A stretch of DNA of 64,000 bases from Candidatus Methylacidiphilum fumarolicum. Its GTDB lineage: Bacteria > Verrucomicrobiota > Verrucomicrobiia > Methylacidiphilales > Methylacidiphilaceae. The stretch covers positions 372,001 to 436,000 of the forward strand of contig NZ_OX458932.1 of NCBI RefSeq assembly GCF_949774925.1, written 5' to 3'. The position numbers and the translations under genes are program-made. Below are positions 10,315 to 28,416 of the stretch, piece after piece. The notes under the pieces were generated by a model. The model did no database searches. It was given only the letters and a program-made list of their open reading frames with translations, and was not told the origin of the DNA. Every line of letters begins with the position of its first letter. Position 1 is the first letter of the stretch.

Positions 10315-10330
10315 AGCAGTAGAGTAGAGT

Positions 10331-10705
10331 ATGGGGAAAGAAAAAAAGGTGTTAAGCGGAGAAAAATACGTGTTTTCGAGCGATAGTCAAAAGATAGAAA
10401 TTCTTGAAGCAGCCTTTGATTATCGGGGGGATGTGACTCTTGAACTGGTTCAGGGAGAGACCATCGAAGGCTATCTTTTTAATAGGCAATTGACGGAAGC
10501 TCCTTTTTTTGTCGAAATGCTTGTTCCTGGCGAAGAGTCGGCTCGTCGTATTCCTATCGAACAGATCTGTGCTGTGACGTTCAGTGGAAAAGATCCAGCA
10601 GATGGAAAATCCTATGAAGCATGGAAGGCTAAAAAAGAAAAAGAAAGACGCGAAGAAGCCAAAAAAATCGAGTCAGAAATGAAGCAGGCAGGCTTGCTGG
10701 ACTAA
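10331..10705 (+). CDS. Conserved hypothetical protein downstream of hpnH
   Basis: A 124-residue soluble protein with no signal peptide. The first 85 residues look like a small beta-rich domain (VTLELVQGETIEGYLFNRQL, RRIPIEQICAVTFSGKDPA). The C-terminal 35 residues form a charged, probably coiled helix (YEAWKAKKEKERREEAKKIE). The glycine-containing beta pattern recalls Sm-like/SH3-type folds, but that is only an impression. Its closeness to hpnH suggests cotranscription, not shared function. Confidence 0.7.
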   Translation: MGKEKKVLSGEKYVFSSDSQKIEILEAAFDYRGDVTLELVQGETIEGYLFNRQLTEAPFFVEMLVPGEESARRIPIEQICAVTFSGKDPADGKSYEAWKAKKEKERREEAKKIESEMKQAGLLD

Positions 10706-10760
10706 TGACTTCTCTCTTTGCATGCAGACATGATCCTGAGATTAATTCTGACAATCTTCT

Positions 10761-11402: not shown

Positions 11403-11423
11403 GGAGACTATCCTGTTAGTTAT

Positions 11424-11497
11424 TCGGGCTGCAGGGATTTGAACCCTGGACCTCTTGGTCCCGAACCAAGCGCGCTACCAGTCTGCGCTACAGCCCG
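11424..11497 (-). tRNA. tRNA-Pro (anticodon CGG)
   Basis: Read on the minus strand, the acceptor stem CGGGCTG pairs with CAGCCCG followed by discriminator A. The anticodon stem is CTTGG/CCAAG with loop TTCGGGA, giving anticodon CGG. The T arm is CAGGGTTCAAATCCCTG. The CCA tail is not encoded. The gene lies between the YfiH-type gene and a tnpB remnant. Confidence 0.95.
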
Positions 11498-11552
11498 GAG
11501 CAAATTAATATCGCAGTTTATAATTAATTGGAAAAGTTTTTTTCTGTTCTTC

Positions 11553-11615
11553 AAAATATATTCGGAACTTGTTTACGCCTGGGCTAAGTTCGTTCACCTT
11601 GGTTTTGGATCGGGA
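11553..11615 (-). repeat. TnpB-element right-end repeat, copy 3
   Basis: Third copy of the element end (AAAATATATTCGGAACTTG, then TTTACGCCTGG, AAGTTCGTTC). On the minus strand it lies directly downstream of a recognisable tnpB remnant, which defines the identity of all three copies. Confidence 0.6.
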
Positions 11616-12240
11616 TGTCTTGGGATTAGCATGGCCGATTCGTCCTCCAGAGGGCTCATGGTGGAATCGGGCGGTTTCCCATTGCTGCGGGAAAACCTTC
11701 CGAAAGCTGTCTTTGGCGCGGTTCTTCGGATGGGCATAACCGCACTTCAGACAAGATCAGAGTGCTATAGGCCAGGTTATGCTTCTCTTGAGGGGAACAC
11801 GCCCGCAGCCGCCAGCAATTTGATTCGCTCCCAAAGCACACGGTCCGTAGCTGGATGATACGCTGGAGAAGCTCCTTGCTCGGAGCGCGATCCTGAAAGT
11901 AGAGGGTCATCGAGCCGGTCGCCAATGTCTTTCGTGAGGCAAGAAACCAGCGCAGGCTTGTGTTCAGCTGCCGTTCGATTTTCTTCGGAGCCTTGCGCAG
12001 CAGCTTTTGGCGCTTTTCGTCCCCAGGTTGTTCCTTCGATCCGCTTGGCCTTGGACGTGTCCTTGCCATTCGGCCGGATCGCATGAAGCCTGCCCCGCTT
12101 CTGCCCCTTCTTCTTGTGGACGCATGACAACCGGCTGAATAGCTCGCCAAAACCTATCCCATACCGCTTCTCATGATCATCGGTGAAAACCTTGGAGAGG
12201 CCAGCGTCGATGCCGCCGAATTTGCTTTCCCGCCATCTTT
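11616..12240 (-). pseudogene. Decayed tnpB (RNA-guided nuclease of IS200/IS605-type element)
   Basis: TnpB is the RNA-guided nuclease of IS605-type elements. On the minus strand the RuvC-I motif is clear near 12225 (FGGIDAGLSKVFTDDHEKRY), followed by LSCVHKKKGQKRGRLHAI. In another frame it continues KRQKLLRKAPKKIERQLNTS, and in a third it contains the zinc-finger half CLKCGYAHPKNRAKDSF near 11740. These pieces are in TnpB order but need at least two frame changes, and about 170 N-terminal residues are missing. The gene is dead. The 3' end plus the repeat at 11553 could still encode a guide-RNA scaffold. Confidence 0.75.
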
Positions 12241-12277
12241 CGTTACTGCTTGTTTATGCTCCGAATGGGCAACGCGT

Positions 12278-12358
12278 CAAACTTTTCCGGCGAATAGAGG
12301 GTCGCCTATGCATACATTTGACTAGATTGGCATCACTATATCATTACCTATTCATTTC
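12278..12358 (-). repeat. 5'-flank repeat, copy B
   Basis: Matches 8680-8760: CATACATTTGACTAGATTGG is paired with CATACATTTAACTAGCTTGG, and similarity runs to 12358. Here the segment abuts the truncated tnpB, so it behaves as the left side of that element. From 12359 to 12515 the sequence is AT-rich and I see no gene. Confidence 0.5.
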
Positions 12359-12515
12359 TCTCTCAGAACATTGTTCAACAAAAGAGTGAGCGGTGACTTC
12401 TCAAAGAGAAAGGAATCAATCAAATAGTTATTGAAAAATGAACATTTTTTATACATCATGCCTAAAAGAATTAATAATAAGGCTTATACAAAAAAATATA
12501 ATTAATTATTTTAAT

Positions 12516-12587
<72 letters not shown>

Positions 12588-12724
12588 ATTCTTCTAAATT
12601 GCCTCAATTGTTAGACAAGATACAGAGAAAATTTAGAACCAATTTTCATTTTTCCTTTTTTATTTAAAATGGATTAGCAATAAAGAAATAGAAGCTTATC
12701 TAATTAGATTTATTATTGTTATCA

Positions 12725-13381
12725 ATGGGTAATATATTTAACCGGCAGTCCAACGATTTACCTCCTAAAATACTATTAGGGATTGTAGTCCTGGGTTTTT
12801 TATTTGTGATGGGCATAAGCTATTATTTTACGCCTAAATACTCGAGAGTCGGCTACATGCCCACACAGCCGATACCATTCGATCATTCTCTCCATGCCAA
12901 TCAACTTGGGTTAGATTGCCGTTTTTGTCACAGTTATGTTGAAAAAAGTGGCTTTTCTAATATTCCGACCACACAAACTTGTATGAACTGTCATAGGCAA
13001 ATTAAAATGGACAGCCCTAAATTGGCTCCACTCCGAGAAAGTTGGGAAACAGGAAAGCCTATAAAGTGGGTAAGGATACACCAACTGCCCGATTATGTTT
13101 ATTTTGATCACTCCGCCCATGTCAACCGAGGAATAAGTTGTGTGAGCTGTCATGGTAAGGTCAATCAGATGCAGAAGATCTATCACGACCAGCCTTTGAG
13201 CATGAGCTGGTGTTTAGATTGCCATAGAAACCCTGAATACTTTGTGAGGCCACCGGATAAAGTATTTGATTTGGATTGGAAGCCAGAGAATGAAGGAGAA
13301 ACCCAGCTGCTCCTTGGTAAAAAACTAGTAAAAGAAATGGGAATACATCCACCAGAAAATTGTGATGCCTGTCATAGGTAA
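12725..13381 (+). CDS. actA: Alternative complex III subunit ActA (pentahaem cytochrome c)
   Basis: A membrane-anchored multihaem cytochrome of the quinol:electron acceptor oxidoreductase called alternative complex III. One N-terminal membrane helix (ILLGIVVLGFLFVMGIS) precedes five CXXCH haem sites: CRFCH, CMNCH, CVSCH, CLDCH and CDACH. I place the start at the ATG 12725 (MGNIFNRQSND) in preference to the upstream TTG 12716, though neither has a strong ribosome site. It opens the act gene block; ActB follows after 76 bases. Confidence 0.92.
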   Translation: MGNIFNRQSNDLPPKILLGIVVLGFLFVMGISYYFTPKYSRVGYMPTQPIPFDHSLHANQLGLDCRFCHSYVEKSGFSNIPTTQTCMNCHRQIKMDSPKLAPLRESWETGKPIKWVRIHQLPDYVYFDHSAHVNRGISCVSCHGKVNQMQKIYHDQPLSMSWCLDCHRNPEYFVRPPDKVFDLDWKPENEGETQLLLGKKLVKEMGIHPPENCDACHR

Positions 13382-13457
13382 TTACATGTATTATAGCGTT
13401 ATGGTCTTCACATAAAAATAGCTCTTAAGAGGAAAAGAGGGCTAGAGGTTTTATATT

Positions 13458-16400
13458 ATGGATGCGACGAAAGAAGAAGGGAAGATGAACCGCAGGACTT
13501 TCTTGAAGGCTATGTCGGCGGCGGCTATGGCGACTGGATCAATAGCAGCGACAGGATGCCGACGTCCAGAAGCATTTCTTGTGCCCTATACGAATAGCCC
13601 TGAATGGATTATACCAGGAAAAGCTTTGTTTTATGCTACTTCCAGACCGACTCGAAACGGTGCCGAGCCAATCCTTGTAGAATCTCACGAGGGAAGGCCT
13701 ACGCATATCCATCCTAACCCTTACTTTGCTGATTACGGAGTGTCTACGCAAACACAAGCTTCGATCCTAGATCTCTATGATCCGGATAGGGACGGGCGCA
13801 TTACCCGAAACGGAGAGGTGGTATCCAAAAAAGAGTTCATCGAATTTTTTAAATCTCAAGTCCAACAATGGAATGATAGAAAAGGGGCAGGGCTAGCTAT
13901 ACTTTCTTTTCCAGTGATTTCTCCTACGTTTGATCGGCTAAAAACCGAGTTTTTGGAAAAATGTCCTCATGCAACTTTCGCCTTTTATGACCCAGTGGGT
14001 AATGAGAACAGGAAAGAGGCTATCAAGCGATTTTATGGAGTTTCCTTAAGCCCTGTTTTCCAATGGGAGAAGGCCGATGTCATTCTTTCTGTAGGATGCG
14101 ATTTCTGTTCAGCAGAAGAAGGAGTAGAAGCCATTCGTGGATTTGTGAAATCAAGAAAACTAACAGAAAGCTCCAGTTCGATGAGTCGACTGTATGTAGT
14201 CGAAAATCGGATGACGGTGACTGGGGCGATGGCCGATCATCGGTTGGCTCTAAAAGTCTCCGATGTTGAGCTTTTTTTGCTGACCTTGTGTTACTTCTTG
14301 GCCCAAGAAAAAGGCTTTGAAAATTTAAAGCCCGCCATTGCTTCCTTTAGCATTCCAACAGGTTGGAGTGCGGACTTGATTAATTGGATAAAAGTCTTGG
14401 CTAACGATTTAGCTGCTGCCAACGCGCCACTGGTAGTAATTAGCCGGATGGCTCCAGTATCGCAGCAGCTATTGGTTCTTGCCATCAACGAAGCCTTTGG
14501 AGAAAGACAGGCAGTGCGGATGATCCCTCAGCTAGAATCAGAAGGCGCTAGCTTCCCAGAACTCTGTGAAATGATTAAAAAAGAAGAAATCAAAGATCTT
14601 CTTATCATTGGGGCTAACCCAGTTTATAATGCACCGGGAGACAGCCATTGGCCTGAACTACAGCGTAGCCTTCCTTCTGTTGTTCATTTTGGGCTATTAA
14701 ACGATGAGACAGCTGCCTATGCTAATTGGCATATTCCTCTAAGTCATTACCTAGAATGCTGGGGAGATTCGAAGACCTCCAGCGGGCTCTACGTTAGTCA
14801 ACAGCCTCTAATCGAACCACTTTTTGGATCTATCGGTTTGTTGGAACTTTTCGCTTTTATGAACGGGACGTGGGAGGCTTTGGAAGAGTCTGAACCAACT
14901 CCTCCCTCCATGTTAGCTCAGCCGCCCGTGGCAGGAGCCCCTCCCTTTATTCCTCTACCGCTTGGATTGCGTCTAGTCCGAGATACGTTTTTTAAACTTT
15001 TCCCTGCCGCAGGCTCTGATAAGGATCTTATTTGGAGAAAACTATTGCACGATGGATTTTACAAAGAGTCCTCGCCTCAATTTGTCAATGCTGTTCCAAA
15101 GTGGGAAGAATGGAGCAAGAGTGTCGAAAATCTTAAGGTTCAGAGAACCAACAAGGAGCAGTTGGAACTTGTTTTCTATCCTTGTCCTAAAGTGGATGAA
15201 GGCAGTTTGGCCAATAATGGCTGGCTGCAAGAATTGCCTGATACGGTGACCAAGCTCTGCTGGGACAACGCTCTGTTAATGAGTCCTAATACGGCTAAGC
15301 GTTATGGCATTTTTGCCCGAAAGGCGGATTCAAGAAAGGCAGAAATCGTGCGCATTGTTTCTGGGGAAAAATGGATTGAGGTGGCTGCCTTAGTCGTTCC
15401 TGGTCATGCGGACAATTCTTTATCTTTAGCCCTAGGGTATGGTCGTAAGAAAGAATTAAGAGTGGCCGCAGGGGTGGGCTTTAATGCTTATCCACTTACC
15501 AAAACGGAACAATTTTGGTGGATTAGTGACTGTTCGATCCAAAAAACAAATCGTTTTTATGATTTGGCTAGATCTCAAGAACATCAATTGATGCATGGAA
15601 GACCGCTAGTCAAGATAGCTTCGCTGGAGTATTTCCGAAAGCATCCCGATTTTATTTCAGAGCAGGGGACTGAAGAGATCCCAGAAGTCTCCATTTATGA
15701 AAATCCTTATTCTGGCCAGAAAGAAAAAGGTCCTGCTTATAAAGGAGGGGTTTGGGGAGGGCCCTATCAATGGGGCATGGTCATTGACTTGGGAAGTTGT
15801 GTGGGATGCAACGCCTGCGTTGTGGCTTGTCAGAGCGAAAACAATATTCCGATTGTAGGCAAAGGGCAGGTTATGCGTGGTCGGATTATGCAGTGGATTA
15901 GGATAGATAATTATTATCAAGGGAGCGATGAAAATCTGCAGATGTTTTTTGAACCCATGCTTTGCCAGCATTGTGAGAATGCTCCCTGCGAGTCGGTCTG
16001 CCCAGTCTATGCGACAGTCCATAGTAAAGATGGGTTGAATGTGATGGTTTATAACCGTTGTATTGGCACAAGAGCCTGTGCAGCTAACTGTCCTTATAAG
16101 GTCAGACGATTTAATTTTTTTGATTACAATAAAAGGGATGTGCTGAAGAAAAAGAAGATTGGACCCTTTGAAATAGAAAATTTGTATTTGGGTCCTTTTG
16201 GGGACCTGGGTTCTCCGTTGACCATTCAGCTTCAGAGAAACCCTAATGTTACCGTAAGGATGCGGGGAGTCATGGAGAAGTGCACTTTTTGTGTTCAACG
16301 GATTGAAGAAGCAAAAATAACGGCTCTAGCAAGGTCCAAAGGCACAGAGCCTAAGACTATCCCTACCGATTCTGTAAAAACGGCTTGTCAGCAGGCTTGC

Positions 16401-16595
16401 CCAGCTGGAGCGATCATGTTTGGCAATCTAATGGATCAACAGAGCATGGTTTCTAAATGGAAAAAGAATGAGCGAGCTTATCGTGTTTTGCAAGAGCTGA
16501 ATACTAGACCTAGGATCACTTATTTGGCTAGGATTAACAATCCAAATCCTTCGATTGCTCCTCAAACCCAATTCGAAGGGAAGAAAGAGAACTAA
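13458..16595 (+). CDS. actB: Alternative complex III subunit ActB (molybdopterin-like plus Fe-S)
   Basis: The large periplasmic subunit that relays electrons inside alternative complex III. A Tat signal is visible (NRRTFLKAMSAA, R12-R13), followed by a possible lipobox ending at ATGC. The first 700 residues resemble a molybdopterin-oxidoreductase domain; in this family it has no cofactor. The last 300 residues hold ferredoxin-type clusters: CVGCNACVVACQSE, CQHCENAPCESVCP, CIGTRACAANCPYKVRR, and CTFCVQR with CQQACP. The 1045-aa length fits fused ActB1/ActB2. It lies 6 bases before actC. Confidence 0.93.
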   Translation: MDATKEEGKMNRRTFLKAMSAAAMATGSIAATGCRRPEAFLVPYTNSPEWIIPGKALFYATSRPTRNGAEPILVESHEGRPTHIHPNPYFADYGVSTQTQASILDLYDPDRDGRITRNGEVVSKKEFIEFFKSQVQQWNDRKGAGLAILSFPVISPTFDRLKTEFLEKCPHATFAFYDPVGNENRKEAIKRFYGVSLSPVFQWEKADVILSVGCDFCSAEEGVEAIRGFVKSRKLTESSSSMSRLYVVENRMTVTGAMADHRLALKVSDVELFLLTLCYFLAQEKGFENLKPAIASFSIPTGWSADLINWIKVLANDLAAANAPLVVISRMAPVSQQLLVLAINEAFGERQAVRMIPQLESEGASFPELCEMIKKEEIKDLLIIGANPVYNAPGDSHWPELQRSLPSVVHFGLLNDETAAYANWHIPLSHYLECWGDSKTSSGLYVSQQPLIEPLFGSIGLLELFAFMNGTWEALEESEPTPPSMLAQPPVAGAPPFIPLPLGLRLVRDTFFKLFPAAGSDKDLIWRKLLHDGFYKESSPQFVNAVPKWEEWSKSVENLKVQRTNKEQLELVFYPCPKVDEGSLANNGWLQELPDTVTKLCWDNALLMSPNTAKRYGIFARKADSRKAEIVRIVSGEKWIEVAALVVPGHADNSLSLALGYGRKKELRVAAGVGFNAYPLTKTEQFWWISDCSIQKTNRFYDLARSQEHQLMHGRPLVKIASLEYFRKHPDFISEQGTEEIPEVSIYENPYSGQKEKGPAYKGGVWGGPYQWGMVIDLGSCVGCNACVVACQSENNIPIVGKGQVMRGRIMQWIRIDNYYQGSDENLQMFFEPMLCQHCENAPCESVCPVYATVHSKDGLNVMVYNRCIGTRACAANCPYKVRRFNFFDYNKRDVLKKKKIGPFEIENLYLGPFGDLGSPLTIQLQRNPNVTVRMRGVMEKCTFCVQRIEEAKITALARSKGTEPKTIPTDSVKTACQQACPAGAIMFGNLMDQQSMVSKWKKNERAYRVLQELNTRPRITYLARINNPNPSIAPQTQFEGKKEN

Positions 16596-16601
16596 AGATC
16601 T

Positions 16602-18044
16602 ATGGTAAGCAAATTTGGGCTAGAGAAGAACCTTTCAGAAGAAAAAAAAGCGTTGTTGCTTGAGCAATTAGAGAGGCCTCCTCTTGTGCTGAACAAGAGA
16701 AACTACGGCTGGTTAACCGAAGCGATCTGTTCTATTGTCGAAAAGCCAGCGAAATTGGAATGGTGGATTGCTTTTATACTTTCTTTTCTTCTTTCGCTGC
16801 TGATGCCACTAACAATTGTTTATTTTATCAGTACAGGACTTGGAGTATGGGGTCTGAATAGTCCAGTATTCTGGGGGCTAGCGATTCTTAATTTTGTTTT
16901 TTGGATTGAGATTGGCCATGCAGGCACGCTGATTTCAGCCATCCTTCTTCTTACTAGACAAAAGTGGAGAAACTCTGTGAACAGAGCGGCTGAGGCGATG
17001 ACGATTTTTTCTGTTCTCTGCGCAGCGGTCTTCCCTCTGTTTCATATTGGTAGGCAGTGGATGTTTTGGTATTTGGTTCCTGTTCCAGAGTCGTATGCCG
17101 TATGGCAAAATTTCAGAGCGGCATTACTCTGGGATGAATTTGCTGTGGGCACCTATTTTACGGTTTCCTGTTTGTTCTGGTATTTCGGATTGATCCCGGA
17201 TATTGCTGTTTTAAGAGATAGAGCTGAGAAAGGCTGGAAAAAACGGCTTTATCATATTCTTTGTTGGGGATGGAGCGGTTCGGCTGCTGAATGGCATCAT
17301 TATGAACTTGGTTATCTTTGTTTAGGTGGCATTGCCACGATTTTAGTCGTTTCGGTAGCTTCCGTTGTTTCTACTGATTTTGCGACAACGGTTTTACCAG
17401 GATGGCATGAAACGATTTTCCCTCCTGATTTTATTACGGGTGCGATTTTCAGTGGTTTTGCAATGATCGCTACCTTATTGATTCCTTTACGAGCCCTATA
17501 CCCGCAGCTGAAAGATGTGATCACTCCAAAGCATATCGATAATATGGCTAGAATCATGCTTGCCACCGGTTCCATGGTAGGCTATTCCTATATCATTGAG
17601 CTGTTTGTAGCCTGGTATAGTGCTAATGTTTACGAAAAGTATCTCTTTTTGAATCGTATTTTTGGTCCCTATGCCATCGCCTATTTTTTAATGTTCGGTT
17701 TTAATGTCTTCTTGCCTCAACTCTTTTGGTGGAAAAAAATAAGGTCTAGTCCGTGGGCGGTCTTTTTCATTTCGATTCTTATCAATGTGGGTATGTGGTC
17801 TGAGCGCTTTGTCATCGTTGTTACTGCCCTCTCGAGAGATTTTCTGCCTGGATCCTGGAGAATGTATTATCCGACTTGGGTAGATATTGGATTGTTCGTA
17901 GGAACTGTGGGATTTTTCTTTATGCTATTCCTTCTTTTTACGCGGTTTTTTCCTGTGATATCGATCTCGGAAGTAAAAACTTTAGTCTATGAAATGGAGC
18001 GGAAAGAAGATGATTTGAAGAAAGGAACCCCTTATGGAGCATGA
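16602..18044 (+). CDS. actC: Alternative complex III subunit ActC (NrfD-like quinol-site membrane protein)
   Basis: A polytopic membrane protein of the NrfD/PsrC family, 480 aa with about ten hydrophobic helices. It is expected to bind menaquinol and pass electrons to ActB. The conserved NYGWLTEAICSIVEKP start and the FPLFHIGRQWMFWYLVP region are typical of ActC. It ends 11 bases inside actD, so translation is probably coupled. Confidence 0.93.
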   Translation: MVSKFGLEKNLSEEKKALLLEQLERPPLVLNKRNYGWLTEAICSIVEKPAKLEWWIAFILSFLLSLLMPLTIVYFISTGLGVWGLNSPVFWGLAILNFVFWIEIGHAGTLISAILLLTRQKWRNSVNRAAEAMTIFSVLCAAVFPLFHIGRQWMFWYLVPVPESYAVWQNFRAALLWDEFAVGTYFTVSCLFWYFGLIPDIAVLRDRAEKGWKKRLYHILCWGWSGSAAEWHHYELGYLCLGGIATILVVSVASVVSTDFATTVLPGWHETIFPPDFITGAIFSGFAMIATLLIPLRALYPQLKDVITPKHIDNMARIMLATGSMVGYSYIIELFVAWYSANVYEKYLFLNRIFGPYAIAYFLMFGFNVFLPQLFWWKKIRSSPWAVFFISILINVGMWSERFVIVVTALSRDFLPGSWRMYYPTWVDIGLFVGTVGFFFMLFLLFTRFFPVISISEVKTLVYEMERKEDDLKKGTPYGA

Positions 18045-18630
18045 GAGAAGCGAGGATATTTATGGATTAGGAGCTGAATTTGATTCCATCCATAAACTAA
18101 TGGCTGCGGCCAAGGAGCTTTCTAAATTGGGTTATACGCAATGGGAAGTTTATTCTCCCTTCCCGATCCATGGAATAGCGCATGTAAGGAGACTTGGCAA
18201 ATCGAAAGTTTCTCTCTTTAGTTTAGTGGGAGGCTTGATTGGCTTGTCTATTGCCCTAGTGATGGTAACGGCTATCTCTGCTCCTAGGCCCTCCTTCTTT
18301 AAGGAGGTGTTGAGTAGTCATCTCCAAGGCCTTTTTTATCCTTTGGTAGTCCAAGGTAAACCGTATCTAGGATTTCAAGCTTTTGTTCCCGTGCTAATTG
18401 AAATGACGATTCTTTTTGCTTCTTTCAGCACGGTTATCGGTGTGTTCTTTTTTAACCGTATGCCTTCTCCTTATAAATCGGTCTGGAATTGGGAACGGTT
18501 GTCGCAAAAAGCGATGGATGATCGCTTTTTTTTGGTAGTGGAAAAATCTGATCCACATTTTTCAGAAGATAAAACAAAACTTATTTTAAAAGAATTAGGA
18601 GCCCAAGCCGTTGTGAGCATTCGGAGATAA
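18034..18630 (+). CDS. actD: Alternative complex III subunit ActD (DUF3341)
   Basis: A 198-aa membrane subunit with two helices (VSLFSLVGGLIGLSIALVMV and VLIEMTILFASFSTVIGVFF) and a cytoplasmic N-terminal domain. The motif YTQWEVYSPFPIHGI is diagnostic of the DUF3341/ActD family. The ATG overlaps the end of actC by 11 bases and the stop is 4 bases from actE, so the block is one operon. Confidence 0.91.
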   Translation: MEHERSEDIYGLGAEFDSIHKLMAAAKELSKLGYTQWEVYSPFPIHGIAHVRRLGKSKVSLFSLVGGLIGLSIALVMVTAISAPRPSFFKEVLSSHLQGLFYPLVVQGKPYLGFQAFVPVLIEMTILFASFSTVIGVFFFNRMPSPYKSVWNWERLSQKAMDDRFFLVVEKSDPHFSEDKTKLILKELGAQAVVSIRR

Positions 18631-18634
18631 ATCA

Positions 18635-19252
18635 ATGCGGTATTTCTTTTATATTTGTTTTCTTTTAGTGACATCGGTGATAGCTACAGCGGGGCTACGT
18701 GGATGGAAAAGTCCAAAGCCGCCATTGGAAATTTTTCCTGATATGGTCAGGCAGTTGAAAGTCAAAGAACAGGCCTATAGCGTCTTTTTCCCAGATGGTA
18801 TGGCAGCCCGAATGCCAGTCAATGGAACGGTATGTTGGGAGGAGCCGGTGGAAAACCCTTATCTTTCTACAGGCATTATTGGAGAACAGTGGGGAGAAGG
18901 ATTCCCCATTGCCTTATCGATCGATACGCTTAAGAAAGGAAAAGAGAACTTCGAAATTTACTGCTCGGCTTGCCATGGATTGGCTGGCTATGGTAACGGA
19001 ATAGCAACGCGGTTTAATCTTTTTGGGGTGCCAAACTATCACCAGGATCATACAAGAGAGCTACCCGATGGCCAGATCTTTTATATTATTTCTCATGGCC
19101 AGGGAATGATGCTAGGCTATGGGGCCAATCTGTCTGTGGAAGAAAGATGGGCTATTGTTGCCTATATTAGGGCGTTGCAAAAAAGCCAAAACGTTCCTTT
19201 TGACGCATTACCTGAGGAAAAAAAACAAATTCTGAAGGAGATCCAGCAATGA
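18635..19252 (+). CDS. actE: Alternative complex III subunit ActE (monohaem cytochrome c)
   Basis: A membrane-anchored or lipoprotein-like c-type cytochrome, 205 aa. An N-terminal hydrophobic segment (FFYICFLLVTSVIATAGLRG) is followed by a single haem site CSACHG and a distal region with candidate Met ligands (SHGQGMMLGYG). It probably carries electrons from ActA/ActB to an oxidase or soluble cytochrome. It overlaps actF by 4 bases (ATGA). Confidence 0.9.
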   Translation: MRYFFYICFLLVTSVIATAGLRGWKSPKPPLEIFPDMVRQLKVKEQAYSVFFPDGMAARMPVNGTVCWEEPVENPYLSTGIIGEQWGEGFPIALSIDTLKKGKENFEIYCSACHGLAGYGNGIATRFNLFGVPNYHQDHTRELPDGQIFYIISHGQGMMLGYGANLSVEERWAIVAYIRALQKSQNVPFDALPEEKKQILKEIQQ

Positions 19253-20451
19253 ATGATGCCAGCTACTTTATTCATCAACGGACCATGCTCCCAAAGGAAA
19301 AACTCAATGGTGTTATTCGACTCTTGGGAATAGCTGGAAGCATTGTGCTGTTGATTTCGTTGTTGGGGCTTGCGGTCAACAAATCTGAATTTTTCCATGC
19401 CTGGCTTTTTTCTTTTTTGTTTTATTTTGGTCTATGTACTGGCTCTCTGTTTTGGGTGATCCTTCATTATGTCACGAATGCTGGCTGGGACACCCTTTTA
19501 CGCAGACAGATGGAAAATGTAGCTGCTCTATTCCCATTTGTTGTCCTATTCGCTCTACCGATCTTGTTCGATATTTTTTCCACTCATTATCTTTACGAAT
19601 GGACAAGACCGGAGGTCCAGAAACTCAAGGAGTATTTGGAAAAAGCTCCCTATCTTAATGTCCCATTTTTTAGCCTCCGAGCGGTTCTTTATTTTTGTTT
19701 TTTTAGTATCGTGAGTTGGTTTTTTCGCAAACAGTCCTGTATCCAAGACGGCGATGGCAACCCACTGCATTCACTCAAATTAAAACGCATCGCTTATCCC
19801 GTGGCTGTTCTCTTTGGCTTTCTGTTCACTTTTTTTGCTATCGATTGGGCAATGTCTCTTGAGTTTAGGTGGAGTTCTACCGTTTGGGCTTTTTATCTTT
19901 TTACAGGCGCAGCGGGAGCCAGTTTAAGTCTTTGGATTCTTATTCTTCTTGGTCTTCGAAAGTTTGGTTATCTCCTCCAAATGAACGCTGAGCATTATCA
20001 TCTTCTTGGTAAATTGCTCTTTGCTTTTACAGCCCTGTGGGCCTATCTCGCATTCAGTCAGTACATGTTAATTTGGTATGGGAATATTCCTGAGGAGACC
20101 GATTTTTTTATAAAAAGAAACTATGATGGATGGTTTTACGTTTCCTTGTTACTAGTGATTGGTCGATTTGCTTTGCCTTTCCTATTTCTTCTTCCTCAAG
20201 CTACTAAGAAAAACGAACGGTTTTTGGCAATGGTTGCTAGTTGGGTGTTGTTTATGCAGGCTGTGGAATTGTATTGGATTGTTATGCCCATGGAGTTTGA
20301 GAAAAAACTGGTTGTTGGCTGGATGGAAATATTGATCGTGGTGGGTATGGGATTGGTGTTTTTGTCTGGTTATCTGAGAAATGCTAGCACCGTTTGTTTA
20401 TATCCCATCCATGATCCAAGGCTGCAGGAATCGATAGAAGTATATAACTAA
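19249..20451 (+). CDS. actF: Alternative complex III subunit ActF (second NrfD-like membrane protein)
   Basis: A polytopic membrane protein of about ten helices, 400 aa, paralogous to ActC but shorter. Features include SLFWVILHYVTNAGWDTLLRR near residue 65 and AIDWAMSLEFRWSSTVWAFY in the middle, both usual for ActF. It starts within the actE stop (ATGA). After it, a good ribosome site (AAGGAGG) introduces the next small gene, so transcription probably continues. Confidence 0.91.
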   Translation: MNDASYFIHQRTMLPKEKLNGVIRLLGIAGSIVLLISLLGLAVNKSEFFHAWLFSFLFYFGLCTGSLFWVILHYVTNAGWDTLLRRQMENVAALFPFVVLFALPILFDIFSTHYLYEWTRPEVQKLKEYLEKAPYLNVPFFSLRAVLYFCFFSIVSWFFRKQSCIQDGDGNPLHSLKLKRIAYPVAVLFGFLFTFFAIDWAMSLEFRWSSTVWAFYLFTGAAGASLSLWILILLGLRKFGYLLQMNAEHYHLLGKLLFAFTALWAYLAFSQYMLIWYGNIPEETDFFIKRNYDGWFYVSLLLVIGRFALPFLFLLPQATKKNERFLAMVASWVLFMQAVELYWIVMPMEFEKKLVVGWMEILIVVGMGLVFLSGYLRNASTVCLYPIHDPRLQESIEVYN

Positions 20452-20472
20452 AGGAAGGAGGCAAAAGAAAAG

Positions 20473-20844
20473 ATGAATACCCAGCAGATGGATCAAGAAC
20501 AAAAGCTAAAGAAGCCTCTCATTTTCGAGGATCTGCTCCTGTTCATTGGAATCAGCATTCTTTTCCTTTTGGGGCTTTTATTCTCCTTCCTCTATGCTTC
20601 TTCTATGCAGAATAAGCAAGCATTGGCAGAAAAAAAGAGAGCCGAAGAAATTAGAAAAATGCGGCTTGCTGATCAGTTAGAAGCAAAGAAAAAGCTTTCA
20701 TCTTATGGATGGATTGACAAAGAAAAGCGGATTGTTCATATCCCGATTGAGGAGGCGATGGAGAAGGTAGTGAAAGAGGAGGCATCGAAAAAACCAAAGG
20801 CTTCAGGAGTGTATTTGCCTGGTATACAAAGGCCTGAAAAATAG
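20473..20844 (+). CDS. Small single-pass membrane protein of the respiratory locus
   Basis: A 123-aa protein with one helix (about 20-42, LLLFIGISILFLLGLLFSFLY), a charged linker and the patch SYGWIDKEKRIVHIPIEEAM near residue 77. A similar GWID-x-IPI-AM patch occurs in small proteins encoded beside verrucomicrobial and planctomycete oxidase genes; I know it only as a conserved pattern without an established function. It has a strong AAGGAGG ribosome site at about 20454-20460, and the next gene follows after 13 bases. Confidence 0.8.
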   Translation: MNTQQMDQEQKLKKPLIFEDLLLFIGISILFLLGLLFSFLYASSMQNKQALAEKKRAEEIRKMRLADQLEAKKKLSSYGWIDKEKRIVHIPIEEAMEKVVKEEASKKPKASGVYLPGIQRPEK

Positions 20845-20857
20845 GAGAAAGCGACCG

Positions 20858-22303
20858 ATGAGCCATCCAATGGTAGAGTCTCAGGAGTGGATTGGGAGTG
20901 GAGTTGCTAGACCAATCTCTCTCGACAGATCCTTTTTCATGCCTGTGATATTTATGCTTGTTGCTGCCTTTTTTTGGCTTTTGGTCTCTATGGGATTTGC
21001 TCTTTTGGGTGCGGGTAAGATCGTGATTCCAAGCCTGCTTGGATCGTGGGGATGGTTAACTTTTGGTAGGATCGGATTGGCTTCTTTTCTTGTATTTTCT
21101 TATGGATGGGGAATGAATGGTGGGCTAGCCTACGGCCTCTATCTTGTAGGAAAGAATGCTCAGGAACCCTTTAAGGGCAGCGGCTATTTTCTTTGCTCCG
21201 CTCTTTTTTGGAATCTATCCATTTTTATTGGTATGATGGCCGTTCTCATTGGGGATATTCCTTCTCTATCATGGGCGGGCTGGCCTGATTTTGTGTTATT
21301 CCTGCTTCTTTTGAACTATTCCTTGATGAATTATTGGATTGTAAAGAAGTTGATTGTGAGTGGGAATTTTTTGAAAAACCTTTCCCATAGTTATCTTCTA
21401 ATTGCTTTATTGTGGTTCCCATGGGCGATTGGTAGTCTTTTTGTCTTTTTCCACTGGTTAGTTATTCGAGGTGTTTCTTTTGCAAGCATGGAATGGTGGT
21501 TTAATGAAGGGTTTTTGCATCTTTGGATGGCCCCTGTTGGTTTGTCCATGCTCTATGATTATGTGGAGGGGGGTAACGATCAACGATCTTCGAGTTTTCT
21601 TGGCTGGTTGGGCTTAATCCTATTTTTTCTCTGTTCTAATTTTGCCAGTGCTTCTCATCTGATTGGAGCACCTTTCCCCCTTTGGATCGTAGGTTTAGGT
21701 ATTGCCGCTCGAATCTTGCTCATCCTTGGAGCCGTTGCCATTGGGATCGATCTTTTGCAAAGGCTTAAAAAAAGAGTGCAAGCCAGTAAGCAGAACATCT
21801 TTTCAAGATATTTTATGATTGCTTTCTACTGTTTTTTGATTGCGATCATAGGGGATGGACTTATTGCTATCCCACTCGTTAGCCGGCTCGTTCACTTTAG
21901 TTTTGTAGAAATTGCCTTTCTTGTCCTTTTTATCTATGGCTTTTATTCTTTTGTTCTCATGGGAATGGCGCATTATCTCTATTCAAATTATTTTAGAAAA
22001 CCGTGGCTATCGGAGACCTTTTTAAAGATCACATTTTGGGCAAATATCTATGGGATAAGCTTTCTTTTTGTATTTTTATGTCTGGGCGGGATCATCCAGA
22101 GCGTGGAATTAGAAAATGCTGATCTTCCTTTCTCTCAAGTAGTAGAATCTGTTTTGCCTTATCTGCGAGGAGCTGGTATGTCTGCTACGCTGATACTCTT
22201 CTCTCAGCTTACCTATTGTTTTCTTTTGTTACTCATGTCCCTAATGCCGGTAGAGAAGGAGGGAATCGAAAAGAATGAAAAAAATTTATCGAGAACTATC
22301 TAA
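20858..22303 (+). CDS. CcoN-like (cbb3 subunit I family) membrane protein lacking haem/copper ligands
   Basis: A 481-aa protein with about twelve hydrophobic helices. Its position directly before a CcoO-like gene and its helix layout resemble CcoN. However, the diagnostic histidine motifs of CcoN are gone: the WYGHNAVGF copper-site region reads WWFNEGFLHLWMAP, the GPHHLHYT region reads ASASHLIGAP, and the GHVHSGALGW region reads SFVEIAFLVL. It can hardly reduce oxygen. It may be a structural anchor for the cytochromes encoded next, or a link between complex III and the oxidase. Family placement is inferred from context and weak resemblance. Confidence 0.65.
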   Translation: MSHPMVESQEWIGSGVARPISLDRSFFMPVIFMLVAAFFWLLVSMGFALLGAGKIVIPSLLGSWGWLTFGRIGLASFLVFSYGWGMNGGLAYGLYLVGKNAQEPFKGSGYFLCSALFWNLSIFIGMMAVLIGDIPSLSWAGWPDFVLFLLLLNYSLMNYWIVKKLIVSGNFLKNLSHSYLLIALLWFPWAIGSLFVFFHWLVIRGVSFASMEWWFNEGFLHLWMAPVGLSMLYDYVEGGNDQRSSSFLGWLGLILFFLCSNFASASHLIGAPFPLWIVGLGIAARILLILGAVAIGIDLLQRLKKRVQASKQNIFSRYFMIAFYCFLIAIIGDGLIAIPLVSRLVHFSFVEIAFLVLFIYGFYSFVLMGMAHYLYSNYFRKPWLSETFLKITFWANIYGISFLFVFLCLGGIIQSVELENADLPFSQVVESVLPYLRGAGMSATLILFSQLTYCFLLLLMSLMPVEKEGIEKNEKNLSRTI

Positions 22304-22329
22304 CTCATAATCCATTGTAAAGGTAGTCA

Positions 22330-22926
22330 ATGATAGCACGAATTGTTTGGGTTTTAGGCATCTTTCTCTGTTTTCTGCTTGGATGGTTTGTCTATATCAT
22401 TATCCCTTCGCAGGTTTTAGATCCTTCGCCGGAAGGAGAGGAAACCCCTCCGCCTAATTTTGGGCTTGTTGAAGTGGGCCAACAAGTATATGGAGCTAAT
22501 GGCTGTTCAGGGTGTCATACGCAAATAATCAGGCCAGCCAATATGGGTTCGGACATTGCCAGAGGCTGGGGAAACCGAAGAACCTTCCCTGTGGATTATT
22601 ATCACGAGACCAATCCTTTTCTAGGGATTGTGAGAATAGGACCAGATCTTTCTAATATTGGGAAGAGAAAAAAAGATTCAAGCTGGTTTTATATTCTTTT
22701 ATATGAGCCTAATCAAATTTTTCCTGGAACGATTATGCCCCCTTACAAATATCTTTTTCGTAAAGTCAGAGCGGAAGGAAAAAGGAATCCCGAAGCGCTA
22801 CCTCCAGAACTCGATAGAACCCTTCCTAATGGCATGCAAATCATGCCCTCACCGGAAGCTGTAGCTCTGGTAGCTTACCTGCTTTCTCTTGATAGATCTT
22901 ATCCTACCCAACCAAAAAAGCAATGA
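22330..22926 (+). CDS. CcoO-like membrane-anchored monohaem cytochrome c
   Basis: A 198-aa protein with one N-terminal helix (IVWVLGIFLCFLLGWFVYII) and a c-type haem site in GANGCSGCHTQIIRP. The QIIRP following the haem site is typical of CcoO. The downstream NQIFPGTIMPPYKYLF supplies the probable axial Met. It would transfer electrons within a cbb3-like module, but the partner CcoN-like protein has lost its metal ligands. Its end overlaps the next cytochrome gene by 4 bases. Confidence 0.82.
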   Translation: MIARIVWVLGIFLCFLLGWFVYIIIPSQVLDPSPEGEETPPPNFGLVEVGQQVYGANGCSGCHTQIIRPANMGSDIARGWGNRRTFPVDYYHETNPFLGIVRIGPDLSNIGKRKKDSSWFYILLYEPNQIFPGTIMPPYKYLFRKVRAEGKRNPEALPPELDRTLPNGMQIMPSPEAVALVAYLLSLDRSYPTQPKKQ

Positions 22927-23561
22927 CAGAAAACGAAAAGAATCCACAAAAGACAGTCAGCCCACAACCAGCCCTAGGGGAAGAATCGAATAGAAAAATT
23001 CCTAGTTGGTTTTGGCTCCTATCCTTTATTATTTTGTCAGGGGTAGTGTATATCTTGGTGTTTGAAACAGGGGGATGGCGTTCAACGGTCTTCGACACCA
23101 CAAGCCTCTTTTGGGGATATATGCCAAAAGAGAAACCAAAAGAGAAGGTTTTGCAAAAGACTCAACCTGTCGCTGCTGATCCAATGGCCATCGGGCAGGA
23201 GCAGTACCAAGCGATGTGTTCGGCTTGTCATCAGCCAAGTGGTATGGGTATGGCTGGGCAATATCCTCCGCTGGCAAATTCAGAGTATGTCATTGGGAGT
23301 AAGGCAAGATTGGCGGCGATATTGTTAAACGGTCTTTCTGGAGAGCTTAAGATCAATGGACAAACTTACAATGGGGTAATGCCAGGATGGAAAACGGCCT
23401 TAAACGATGAAAAGCTGGCTGCCGTTATGACCTATATTCGCAATTCTTGGGGCAATCATGGGGATAAAGTCGAGGCTAATGAAGTCAAACAGTTCAGAGA
23501 AAAATATGGAAAAAAAGAGGAAGCGTGGAAGCCAAGTGAGTTATCCACCCTTGGAGAATAG
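22923..23561 (+). CDS. Membrane-anchored class I cytochrome c (CcoP-like position)
   Basis: A 212-aa protein with one membrane helix (about 28-47, FWLLSFIILSGVVYILVFET) and one haem c domain: CSACHQ at about residue 99, then GMAGQYPPLANSEYV and a Met-containing MPGWKTALNDEKLAAVMTYI in two parts. This is a standard class I cytochrome c. With only one haem it is not a full CcoP (usually two). It overlaps the CcoO-like gene by 4 bases and is followed by a 134-base AT-rich gap before the oxidase genes, which may hold a separate promoter. Confidence 0.85.
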   Translation: MTENEKNPQKTVSPQPALGEESNRKIPSWFWLLSFIILSGVVYILVFETGGWRSTVFDTTSLFWGYMPKEKPKEKVLQKTQPVAADPMAIGQEQYQAMCSACHQPSGMGMAGQYPPLANSEYVIGSKARLAAILLNGLSGELKINGQTYNGVMPGWKTALNDEKLAAVMTYIRNSWGNHGDKVEANEVKQFREKYGKKEEAWKPSELSTLGE

Positions 23562-23695: not shown

Positions 23696-25543
23696 ATGGA
23701 TTCTGAAATGTCAATGACTTCTCAGGCAGCCCATGGTCATCATGAAGGCCATGAAGAAATCTCTTGGATAAGAAAATACGTTTTTTCTACCGATCATAAA
23801 ATGATCGGTTACCAATACATGGTGACCTCTCTGTTTGTGGCCCTTTTTGCCTTTTTCTTGATGGTGTTGATGCGCTGGCAACTTTCTTTTCCTGGAAAAC
23901 CGATTCCTATTTTTGGGCCTATTCTTGAAAAATTGCTAGGCTCTTCAATGGCTCCAGGTGGGGTGATGACCCCTCAGTTGTATAATTCGTTTGGAGCGAT
24001 GCACGGCACCATGATGATATTTATGGCATTGGTGCCTGCGCTTTTTGCTGGTTTTGGCAATTTTGTGGTTCCCTTACAGATTGGAGCCCCCGATATGGCC
24101 TTCCCTCGGCTGAATATGGCCAGTTTTTGGCTGTTTTTTGTGGGGGTGCTCATAATGATGGTTAGTTTTTTTGTGCCGGGAGGTGCTGCGAAATCGGGAT
24201 GGACTTCGTATACGCCACTGGCTGATTTTGCCGATATGGGACCGGGTTTTCACCCCATTTTTAATGGCCAAACCCTTTGGCTTATCGGCATGGTCTTTAA
24301 TATCACAGGAAGTCTGTTAGGCTCAGTGAACATCATTACCACCATCATTCAGTTAAGGACAAAAGGACTCAGTTGGATGCGCCTGCCTGTTTTTGTGTGG
24401 AGTGAATTAGTCACTGCTTTTCTGTTGCTCCTTGCGTTCCCACCATTAGAAGCAGCAGGGGTCATGCAGCTAATGGATAGGCTTTTTGGAACAAGCTTCT
24501 TTTCTCCGGAAGGGTTAATTATTAATGGTAAGCATGCGGATATTAGTGGGGGTGGTTCCTCCATTCTGTGGCAGCATCTTTTCTGGTTTTTGGGTCATCC
24601 TGAAGTCTATGTTCAGATTCTTCCTACCATGGGAATTGTAGGGGAGATCTTTGCGAACAATACCAGAAAACCACTTTGGAGCTATAAGGTATTCGTTTAT
24701 TCGCTTTTGGCGATTGGCTTTTTATCGATGGTTGTTTGGGCCCATCATATGTATATGACGGGCATGGGACAGGCCGTCACCTCGTTCTTCCAGATCTTTA
24801 CAACAATCATCTCTATTCCTTCCGTTCTTTTGGGAACGGTCTTGCTTCTTTCACTCTGGGGAGCTTCTATCCGCTTTAATGTCCCGATGCTTTTTGCCCT
24901 TGCCTGGCTGCCAATGTTTGGCATAGGAGGATTAACGGGTTTGCCCTTGGGATGGACAGCTTCCGATGTGGTGCTCCATGACACCTATTATGTGATTGGA
25001 CATTTCCATTACATGATGGCACCAGCTTCCCTGCTTGCGCTCTTTGCGGGTATTTACTACTGGTTCCCCAAGGCTACGGGCAGATACATGAATGAATTTC
25101 TTGGTAAAATTCATTTTTGGCCCACTTTTATATTTTTCAATGGCATCTTTTTCCCCATGCTCGTGCAGGGGTTTGCGGGCGTGCATAGAAGATGGTACGA
25201 TGGAGGTGCGGGCTGGCAGATGGCCCAGAATGTCTTGTGGTTGAATCAGGTAATGAGTTTTTCTGCCTGGGCTTTAGCGATTGCTCAAATTCCCTTTATT
25301 ATTAACTTTTTCTGGAGTTTGTTTGCAGGCAAAAAGGTAACCGATGATAACCCCTGGCAAGCAACAACTCTTGAATGGGCAACTCCCACCCCTCCAGGAC
25401 ATGGAAATTTCCTGCATCCTGTAGCGGTTTATAGGGATCCTTACGAGTATAGTGTCCCGGGATACAAACAGGATTATTTACCGCAATGGGAATCGGATGA
25501 AAGACTAAGCAAAGAAGGAAAATTGTCCCAGGTTTCTTTTTGA
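23696..25543 (+). CDS. Cytochrome c oxidase subunit I (A-type haem-copper oxidase)
   Basis: The catalytic subunit that reduces oxygen to water and pumps protons. It is 615 aa with about twelve helices. Ligands are visible: the low-spin haem His in FGAMHGTMMIF, the Cu-B His-Tyr motif GHPEVYVQILP, the HH pair in VVWAHHMY, and the haem a3/low-spin pair in VIGHFHYMM. The start WIRKYVFSTDHKMIGYQYM is usual for this oxidase group. A clear AT-rich upstream region and the order subunit I-III-IV-(small)-II follow. GGGAG lies a few bases before the ATG. Confidence 0.95.
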   Translation: MDSEMSMTSQAAHGHHEGHEEISWIRKYVFSTDHKMIGYQYMVTSLFVALFAFFLMVLMRWQLSFPGKPIPIFGPILEKLLGSSMAPGGVMTPQLYNSFGAMHGTMMIFMALVPALFAGFGNFVVPLQIGAPDMAFPRLNMASFWLFFVGVLIMMVSFFVPGGAAKSGWTSYTPLADFADMGPGFHPIFNGQTLWLIGMVFNITGSLLGSVNIITTIIQLRTKGLSWMRLPVFVWSELVTAFLLLLAFPPLEAAGVMQLMDRLFGTSFFSPEGLIINGKHADISGGGSSILWQHLFWFLGHPEVYVQILPTMGIVGEIFANNTRKPLWSYKVFVYSLLAIGFLSMVVWAHHMYMTGMGQAVTSFFQIFTTIISIPSVLLGTVLLLSLWGASIRFNVPMLFALAWLPMFGIGGLTGLPLGWTASDVVLHDTYYVIGHFHYMMAPASLLALFAGIYYWFPKATGRYMNEFLGKIHFWPTFIFFNGIFFPMLVQGFAGVHRRWYDGGAGWQMAQNVLWLNQVMSFSAWALAIAQIPFIINFFWSLFAGKKVTDDNPWQATTLEWATPTPPGHGNFLHPVAVYRDPYEYSVPGYKQDYLPQWESDERLSKEGKLSQVSF

Positions 25544-25598: not shown

Positions 25599-26390
25599 AT
25601 GGAGATCCCTTATACAGTGACTGCCAGACCGGATACCGGTCTTTATAATGCAAAGGTTGGTATTTGGTTGTTTTTAGCTTCTGAGGTCATGCTTTTTGGA
25701 GGCCTTTTTTCAGCCTATATTTTTCTGAGGCTAGGTGCTACCCATTGGCCGCATCATATCCTTAATGTTCCAATGGGGCTCTTTAATACCATGGTGCTTA
25801 TTAGTTCGAGTATCACGATGGTGATGGCGTGGAGTTCCTTAAAGATGCGGCAATTTTCTAATTATAGAAAATGGCTTGGGATCACTCTTTTTTGCGGGGT
25901 GTTGTTTCTCAGCGTTAAATCTGTTGAATATAAAGATAAGTTCCATCATTACGGGATCATTTTGAATAGTGGACAGGAAATTACTGGCCATTTGGCGATG
26001 ACAGAAGAGGAAGCCATCCATTCTGATGTATTAAAAATTAAGCCGGATCCTGAAAATGCTGGAGATTTTCTTTTTCAGTTAAAATCCATTTTTTCGAAAC
26101 CTGAGGGAGAAGAGAAAGTCCTAGAAATCCCTAAAAAGGAAATTCGCTGGTGGTCTAATTTCGTTCCAAAGTATAATACCTACCTAGCCACCTATTTTAC
26201 GATGACGGGGATTCATGCGCTGCATATCTTAGGTGGTTTATTAGTCTTGGGTTATTTTTGGGGACCAGGAGCAGCCTTATATAGAACGAATCCAGAACAT
26301 TTAGCCAATAGGGTCGAAGTAGCAGGGCTTTTCTGGCATTTTGTCGATCTAGTGTGGATCTTCCTTTTCCCAACACTCTATTTGTTTTAA
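25599..26390 (+). CDS. Cytochrome c oxidase subunit III
   Basis: A 263-aa membrane subunit that supports stable proton pumping. Helices are recognisable at GIWLFLASEVMLFGGLFSAY (near residue 22), at GLFNTMVLISSSITMVMAWS, and in the C-terminal HALHILGGLLVLGY and GLFWHFVDLVWIFLFPTLY. Between helices there is an unusual soluble insert of about 60 residues (roughly 118-180, SGQEITGHLAMTEEEAIHSD onward). A GAGGAG ribosome site precedes the ATG. A repeated short segment (ACATATATAAGAAAG) occurs twice just upstream. Confidence 0.92.
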   Translation: MEIPYTVTARPDTGLYNAKVGIWLFLASEVMLFGGLFSAYIFLRLGATHWPHHILNVPMGLFNTMVLISSSITMVMAWSSLKMRQFSNYRKWLGITLFCGVLFLSVKSVEYKDKFHHYGIILNSGQEITGHLAMTEEEAIHSDVLKIKPDPENAGDFLFQLKSIFSKPEGEEKVLEIPKKEIRWWSNFVPKYNTYLATYFTMTGIHALHILGGLLVLGYFWGPGAALYRTNPEHLANRVEVAGLFWHFVDLVWIFLFPTLYLF

Positions 26391-26426: not shown

Positions 26427-26723
26427 ATGAGTGAAGAAATACATACGGAAAAAAAGAGGATTAAGTCTTATTTTGTCGTTTTTGGATTTTTGGTCATACT
26501 AGCTTTGGTCAATGTGGCCGTTTCATATCTTCATTTAGGGGGAATGAATATTGCTGCAGGATTAGTCATTGCTGGCGTGCAGGCATTGTTGGCTTTAGGG
26601 ATCCTGATGCATATTTTTTGGGAGAAAAAGACTATCCATCATCTTATAGGTCTTGCGATCCTTTTTGTTTTGGCTTTATTTTTATTATTAGTAGCTTCTT
26701 ATTTTGATTCTATAGGAAAATAA
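26427..26723 (+). CDS. Cytochrome c oxidase subunit IV-type small membrane protein
   Basis: 98 aa with three helices (YFVVFGFLVILALVNVAVSY, AAGLVIAGVQALLALGILMH, LIGLAILFVLALFLLLVASY). The helix order and the LMHIFWEKKTIHHL linker match prokaryotic subunit IV (CtaF/CyoD-like). It assists oxidase assembly. AAGGAGAAGG precedes the start. Confidence 0.85.
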   Translation: MSEEIHTEKKRIKSYFVVFGFLVILALVNVAVSYLHLGGMNIAAGLVIAGVQALLALGILMHIFWEKKTIHHLIGLAILFVLALFLLLVASYFDSIGK

Positions 26724-27624: not shown

Positions 27625-28416
27625 ATGATCGCACTTTTGTTGGAACTTACAGGTATTTCACCAAATGCTGCTGAACATGGACACCAAGTAGATCAATTCA
27701 TGGAGTTGATCTTATGGTTTATGCTTATTCTTTTTGTTATTTGGTTTTCGTTTTTTGTTTATTCATTGGTGAAGTTTAACAGTAAAAAGCATCCTAAAGC
27801 CAATTATGAAGGGCTGAAAGCTGATTGGCCAAAGCATTTGGAGTGGGGAGTTATTTTTGTTGAGATGGTTTTACTCTTCGGCTTTTCCATCCCACTCTGG
27901 GGGAAACGGGTATTGAATCCACCATCGGTTTCAGAGGCGATTGTAGTAGAGGCTATTGCTCAACAATTTGGATGGCTTTTCCATTATCCTGGAGCGGATG
28001 GGAAGCTGGGGAAACGGGATAATTTTCTTATTGATCCAATGAATCCCATAGGTCTCGATAAAACTGATCCGGCGTCTAAAGATGATATTGTTACGATGAA
28101 CGAAATGCATGTGCCTGTGGGAAAACCTTTACTGGTTCAGATTGGTTCCAAGGATGTAGTCCATAATTTCTATGTTATTCAAATGCGGATTCAAAGGGAT
28201 GCGATTCCTGGATTGACTATACCATTGTGGTTTACTCCTATCAAAACGGGAAGATTTGAGATTGCCTGTGGTCAACTTTGTGGAGTTGGCCATTTTGCCA
28301 TGAAAGGCTATCTGGTGGTTGAGTCTCAGGAGGAGTACAATAATTGGCTCAAACAAATGGCTGAAATGAATGCTGAATCTAACAATCATGCACAACCTTC
28401 TGTGGCCGGCTACTAA
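27625..28416 (+). CDS. Cytochrome c oxidase subunit II (Cu-A)
   Basis: 263 aa with two N-terminal helices and a cupredoxin domain. The Cu-A site is complete: the His in KDVVHNFYVIQM, then CGQLCGVGHFAMKG (C215, C219, the His and Met after it). It accepts electrons from cytochrome c and passes them to subunit I. There is no fused cytochrome c domain, so this is an aa3-type, not a caa3-type, subunit. In most operons this gene comes first; here it is last. Confidence 0.93.
   Translation: MIALLLELTGISPNAAEHGHQVDQFMELILWFMLILFVIWFSFFVYSLVKFNSKKHPKANYEGLKADWPKHLEWGVIFVEMVLLFGFSIPLWGKRVLNPPSVSEAIVVEAIAQQFGWLFHYPGADGKLGKRDNFLIDPMNPIGLDKTDPASKDDIVTMNEMHVPVGKPLLVQIGSKDVVHNFYVIQMRIQRDAIPGLTIPLWFTPIKTGRFEIACGQLCGVGHFAMKGYLVVESQEEYNNWLKQMAEMNAESNNHAQPSVAGY

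Follow-up and report, generated by a model that had tools for sequence, protein, structure and literature searches.

Gene organization

The window, by which we mean the whole stretch of 64,000 nucleotides that was analyzed, comes from Candidatus Methylacidiphilum fumarolicum (phylum Verrucomicrobiota, class Verrucomicrobiia, family Methylacidiphilaceae), whose 2.48 Mb genome is a single contig. On one strand, genes follow each other in the order act cluster, encoding alternative complex III (ACIII), a gene for a 123-aa protein, a trio of genes whose products have 481, 198 and 212 aa, coxA, coxC, a COX4-like gene, two small ORFs and coxB (Table 1). The trio is therefore bracketed by actABCDEF and the small ORF (12716-20844) and by CoxA (23696-25543), and act genes are followed by cox genes, as would be expected for an ACIII-aa3 supercomplex. 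The original prediction, made from the sequence of the window, had placed the trio between the genes of ACIII and those of an aa3 oxidase, which gene order and the common strand confirm; the coordinates and reading frames were also correct.

The 123-aa protein matched no family above the cut-off in a profile search. It recurs in the class, where its gene is often placed between actF and the trio. The closest named relative of the 481-aa protein belongs to Methylacidiphilum sp. Yel (94% protein identity).

Table 1. Genes of the act, trio and cox region, in window coordinates
Feature	Coordinates	Strand	Basis
ActA, penta-haem cytochrome c of ACIII	12716..13381	+	five CxxCH in orthologues; heads conserved act cluster; TTG start (ORF list)
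ActB, iron-sulfur / molybdoenzyme-like ACIII subunit	13458..16595	+	gene order; genome-wide ActB search
ActC, NrfD-like membrane subunit	16602..18044	+	gene order, orthologues
ActD	18034..18630	+	gene order, orthologues
ActE, mono-haem cytochrome c	18635..19252	+	one CxxCH, gene order
ActF, NrfD-like membrane subunit	19249..20451	+	gene order, orthologues
Small 123-aa protein, hydrophobic N-terminal stretch	20473..20844	+	orthologues in many ACIII loci
CcoN-fold protein, 481 aa, without haem b, haem b3 or CuB ligands except H267	20858..22303	+	
CcoO/FixO-type mono-haem cytochrome c, 198 aa	22330..22926	+	FixO 1e-19; model match; CxxCH and axial Met kept
Cytochrome c, 212 aa, N-terminal hydrophobic stretch, one haem domain, not di-haem CcoP	22923..23561	+	one CxxCH
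CoxA, genuine A-type (aa3) oxidase subunit I	23696..25543	+	COX1 5.5e-129
CoxC, subunit III	25599..26390	+	orthologues, gene order
Subunit IV-like small membrane protein	26427..26723	+	Pfam COX4_pro 1.4e-06
CoxB, subunit II, CuA domain, no fused cytochrome c	27625..28416	+	Pfam COX2; no CxxCH

Fold of the CcoN-like protein

The 481-aa protein matches COX1 in Pfam (2.4e-13), and its sole sequence matches in the PDB are CcoN chains, namely 9g6b_A (3e-5) and, weakly, 3mk7_A (0.13). An AlphaFold (AF2) model of the protein has a mean pLDDT of 84 and a pTM of 0.86. The best seven Foldseek matches of this model are all CcoN, with TM scores of 0.80-0.86. Using VIA-align, the model aligns to solved CcoN structures with Z 45-46 at 2.2-2.9 A over 440-446 residues, and scores lower with cNOR (Z 40-42) and with A-type oxidases (Z about 32-36). 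Because relatives that retain all six ligand histidines were part of the alignment given to AF2, the model was built with knowledge of them; the PDB sequence matches are independent of the model. The protein has the 12-helix CcoN fold and scores 23.4 bits with the CcoN family model TIGR00780, the cut-off of which is 583. Structural comparison with CcoN, as the original prediction had proposed, brought out no other fold, and its description of the protein as CcoN-like is borne out by Foldseek, VIA-align and the sequence matches.

Loss of the metal ligands

We identified the ligand columns, given here in P. stutzeri numbering, from multiple alignments that included genuine CcoN proteins of the same order (above the TIGR00780 cut-off). 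Five of the six histidines that bind haem b, haem b3 and CuB are replaced in the 481-aa protein: H60 by S76, H207 by E217, H257 by S266, H347 by F354 and H349 by V356. The single ligand retained is H258, which is H267 in this protein. In addition, the active-site Tyr251 is replaced by Ser and the conserved Glu323 by Gly. Because the identical ligand replacements occur in all five aligned Methylacidiphilum members, they are not sequencing errors. The expectation that the histidine motifs are replaced was thus right for five histidines and wrong for the second one of the HH pair.

Displaced histidines might rebuild the haem sites, and we therefore looked for them. No histidine is invariant in an alignment of 19 sequences of the CcoN-like family, and none is common to all lineages that have lost ligands, some of which retain only one or two. 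Among ten Methylacidiphilaceae proteins, only H199, H267 and H346 are invariant. Near CuB, H221 was the only candidate for a rescue, and we rejected it because the second genus of Methylacidiphilaceae (g2) has Tyr at this position. The combination of a CcoN fold, missing ligands and no shared set of displaced histidines strongly supports the idea of a non-catalytic CcoN. In our best explanation, the protein would hold neither haem b nor CuB, and would be unable to reduce oxygen or to carry electrons across the membrane.

Partner cytochromes

The protein was predicted to occupy the CcoN position before a CcoO-like cytochrome and a second cytochrome c, and the profile matches of both downstream products agree with this. 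In a comparison of a structural model of the 198-aa product (pLDDT 78), five CcoO chains rank ahead of all other matches, and both the CxxCH motif and the axial Met of CcoO are present. The 212-aa product matches Cytochrom_C in Pfam (5e-11). It is not a di-haem CcoP, given its one CxxCH motif, a FixP_N match of 0.087 that is below the cut-off, and a ccoP score of 32 bits versus 180; it is closer to Thermus cytochrome c552 and to the cytochrome domain of NirK than to CcoP. Thermus c552 donates electrons to a CuA site.

The haem motifs of both cytochromes persist where the CcoN ligands are lost, which supports the proposal that they are the retained working part. Among ACIII-linked loci with ligand loss, the CxxCH motif is intact in CcoO in 71 of 71 cases and in the cytochrome c in 69 of 69, and the latter also keeps its axial Met in 67 of 69. 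The axial Met of CcoO is present in all 34 loci with the full set of histidines versus 41 of 71 ligand-lost loci, the other 30 having Cys (19), His (4) or other residues. The CcoO haem may thus be retuned or sidelined in some of these lineages, although Methylacidiphilum retains the Met.

Compared with strain Yel, dN/dS is 0.15 for the CcoN-like gene, 0.07 for the CcoO-like gene, 0.13 for the cytochrome c gene and 0.02 for coxA. The value of 0.15 indicates purifying selection and argues against a dying gene. The open reading frame of the CcoN-like protein also stays at about 460-520 residues in nearly all members with ligand loss. Given the kept c-haem motifs and the low dN/dS, selection therefore keeps the c-haems and the body of CcoN, and not the haem b and copper core.

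COX1-family genes in the genome

The genome has six COX1-family genes: two A-type-like genes, two of a second type, one of 476 aa that is probably NorB-like, and the CcoN-like gene of the trio. None of the six reaches the TIGR00780 cut-off for CcoN, and the only FixO in the genome is the one beside the CcoN-like gene. A cbb3-type oxidase has been listed in verrucomicrobial methanotrophs (PMC6688271, PMC8498564, PMC10205796, PMC11102522) and placed beside ACIII (PMC6688271, PMC8498564, PMC11102522), and one study links it to high oxygen affinity (PMC6688271). With no genuine CcoN and one FixO in the genome, the "cbb3 oxidase" of the genus rests on the CcoN-like protein of the trio and needs re-annotation. 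By its sequence, this protein cannot be an oxygen reductase, which leaves the aa3 and ba3 enzymes as the necessary source of the oxygen affinity.

Distribution and association with ACIII

We surveyed family alignments covering 387 genomes of the phylum. In the class, 94 genomes have the CcoN-like gene, 92 have ActB and 88 have both. The search for the same trio beside act operons that had been suggested therefore found a linkage, in that 88 of the 92 ActB genomes of the class also carry the CcoN-like gene. Where a genome has this gene only, act genes adjoin it or the sequence is a short fragment in five of six cases, G007 being the exception.

In four inspected loci outside the class (L213, L215, L216 and L217), cox genes come after ACIII and the trio is missing; the remaining ACIII loci inspected there either break off too soon or have no visible cox genes. 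CoxB carries a fused cytochrome c in three of these four loci, a small sample, versus none of 33 beside the trio. CoxA is out of reach in 45 of 74 ligand-lost loci, and near in about two fifths. In the other inspected Methylacidiphilaceae, the trio lies directly before coxACDB on the same strand.

Several individual loci differ from this picture. In one genome of the same family (G028, locus L209), coxC directly follows the small ORF; the CcoN-like protein, the CcoO-like protein, the cytochrome c and CoxA are absent there, and coxC and coxB remain. In L059 (G024), a gene block at about 8479-14500 lies between actF and the small ORF preceding the trio; according to the literature, a nos (N2O reductase) cluster lies within the act genes of M. 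caldifontis IT6. Another locus (L074 of G003, 8282-13100) has a second, very divergent pair of CcoN-like and CcoO-like genes, which adjoins a genuine CcoNO fusion gene in back-to-back orientation and has no act cluster nearby. Outside the class, a related CcoN-like gene that keeps the ligand histidines and has Q at position 323 adjoins a CcoO gene (L172-L180, L205, L206), and a protein of roughly 600 aa with seven CxxCH motifs usually adjoins where the flank is covered. A Parvibaculum match (L003) was rejected as a relative of the trio's type, since it is a genuine CcoN.

Repeated ligand loss in the class

All six histidines are kept in 37 ACIII-linked rows of our alignment, and one or more are lost in 82 tree rows. 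E323 is absent from every member of the family, including those with all histidines. The clade with the full set (L061-L065, L181-L204 and others) also keeps Tyr251, has Q, I, A, L, F, T or M at position 323 and scores far below the CcoN cut-off; it may be a distinct C-type-like enzyme.

We compared two trees. On a tree of ActB and ActC, which is independent of CcoN, ligand state needs 13 changes, at least 10 of which are forced by supported branches; under irreversible loss from a root with all ligands, there are 13 losses. On the CcoN gene tree, 4 changes suffice and 78 ligand-lost rows fall together, but this tree carries long-branch warnings. For the mixed family f12, which contains full and lost members, the CcoN data do not reject a single clade (AU p 0.095, two f12 rows left out). 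Closely placed genera can differ on both trees, e.g., L115, which has lost ligands among full relatives in f10. We rejected a single loss event because of the long-branch warnings, the f12 result, the different histidines kept by different clades, and the strong disagreement of the ActB and ActC tree. Transfer of lost-type trios between lineages could still be the cause of the conflict between the trees. We also rejected the idea that loss is driven by a neighboring CoxA: Fisher's test gives p 0.02, yet there is no association in phylogenetic pairs.

In families f11 and f15 (e.g., L131 and L126), H60 is kept together with Q257 and mostly K258, a fixed pattern that may mark a different cofactor or function. 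In L131 of f11, the axial Met of CcoO is also replaced by Cys.

Such a conversion of an oxidase to a haem-less protein has apparently taken place about a dozen times within the class. Our overall proposal, to which we give slightly less than even confidence, is that a C-type-like oxidase became a fixed partner of ACIII in one class and was turned, around a dozen times independently, into a scaffold free of haem b and copper that solely holds two c-haems as an electron bridge from ACIII.

Proposed function and alternatives

For the Methylacidiphilum trio, we somewhat favor a haem-b-free scaffold whose two c-haems serve as an electron outlet of ACIII, most likely feeding the CuA of the adjacent aa3 oxidase. 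The trio would be a membrane module of ACIII. Its CcoN-like protein would keep the 12-helix fold, bind no haem b or CuB, and serve as a periplasmic-side anchor for two mono-haem proteins, the CcoO-like cytochrome and the tethered cytochrome c. Menaquinol electrons would flow through the ActA and ActE haems to the haems of the CcoO-like cytochrome and the cytochrome c. Their most likely acceptor would then be the CuA site of the neighboring aa3 oxidase, in which CoxB lacks a fused cytochrome c. The binding to ACIII, the electron order and the delivery to this oxidase are steps that we infer.

It is important to consider how far the final step extends. Delivery to aa3 fits the Methylacidiphilum locus, where the genes are adjacent, CoxB lacks a cytochrome of its own, and the trio and CoxA are missing together in G028. 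However, it is not general, because CoxA is missing from the surroundings of so many ligand-lost loci and adjacency is untied to loss in phylogenetic pairs. Moreover, ACIII of F. johnsoniae reaches aa3 even without ActE (PMC8552683), which shows that additional cytochromes can be dispensable. The originally suggested supercomplex, in which the trio bridges ACIII and the adjacent aa3 oxidase, is therefore plausible, with the caveat that the constant neighbor of the trio is ACIII and not the oxidase.

The constant linkage to ACIII, the many loci that lack a nearby CoxA and the missing correlation between adjacency and loss within the phylogeny favor the main rival. Here the trio would provide ACIII with an electron outlet or a docking site for soluble partners (periplasmic cytochromes, other oxidases, N2O reductase, or electrons that enter from methanol oxidation) and would not be a bridge to the adjacent aa3 oxidase. 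It is also in keeping with three further oxygen-reductase subunit I genes elsewhere in the genome, one A-type-like and two of another type, and with the nos cluster inside the act cluster of the relative at L059. Against it stand the position of the trio directly before coxACDB in the inspected Methylacidiphilaceae and the joint absence in G028, and we consider delivery to soluble partners rather unlikely for this locus, if by no means negligible.

A new membrane role for the CcoN-like protein, e.g., in quinone binding, as a proton path or through another cofactor site formed by H199, H267 and H346, is improbable. The invariance of these histidines in the ten Methylacidiphilaceae proteins and the lineage-specific fixed replacements elsewhere, e.g., those accompanying H60 in f11 and f15, speak for such a role, but a common rebuilt site is excluded by the histidine comparison described above. 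Still less probable is that the CcoN-like gene is decaying and persists as a passenger of a useful operon. It does evolve faster than coxA, and its branches are long in lost lineages; nevertheless, its reading frame is kept, dN/dS is well below 1, and the gene has held its place next to ACIII although ligands were lost on about a dozen separate occasions. Finally, it is scarcely credible that the three genes encode a genuine high-affinity oxygen reductase of the cbb3 type (C-type), as annotated in four papers and as the presence of CcoN and CcoO folds might suggest. This reading is contradicted by the missing ligands, tyrosine and glutamate, the low family-model score, the lack of an adjoining di-haem CcoP, and a genome with no other CcoN or FixO.

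Comparison with known systems

The favored reading, a scaffold with two c-haems at the outlet of ACIII, can be compared to several known systems. The trio resembles cbb3 oxidases in the CcoN and CcoO folds and in the gene order N, O and then a cytochrome c. It differs in lacking the metal ligands and E323, so that no catalytic site is possible, and in having a mono-haem cytochrome c instead of a di-haem CcoP. The locus shares with the ACIII-aa3 and ACIII-caa3 supercomplexes of Flavobacterium johnsoniae and Rhodothermus marinus an ACIII cluster followed by an A-type oxidase, for which direct electron channeling is proposed. However, Methylacidiphilum has three extra genes in between and a CoxB without a fused cytochrome c. 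We know of no CcoN-like partner reported in the solved ACIII supercomplex structures of F. johnsoniae or R. marinus.

Haem-copper folds with altered metal sites exist, as do ACIII supercomplexes. NnrS, for instance, is reportedly a ligand-poor relative of the haem-copper oxidases with an altered metal site. It is similar in having a haem-copper-like fold, but is a distant, stand-alone family, whereas the protein studied here is a recognizable CcoN with a CcoO partner in a respiratory operon.

Another known system is the "C-type oxidase next to ACIII" described for Opitutaceae and for verrucomicrobial methanotrophs (PMC8498564, which cites Refojo 2010). This is the same type of locus, and some members keep all six histidines and may be real enzymes. 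However, that account is silent on the loss of the haem-copper site in Methylacidiphilum and many other lineages of the class. In the open-access literature that we searched, there is no earlier description of a CcoN that remains associated with CcoO and ACIII after repeated loss of its metals. Across the class, the number of ligands kept ranges from six to zero, so that nature provides graded examples of an oxidase whose catalytic core disappears although the electron-carrying subunits next to ACIII persist. With these examples, it becomes possible to test how electrons move from ACIII to oxidases, and of what use a haem-copper fold remains once its metals are gone.
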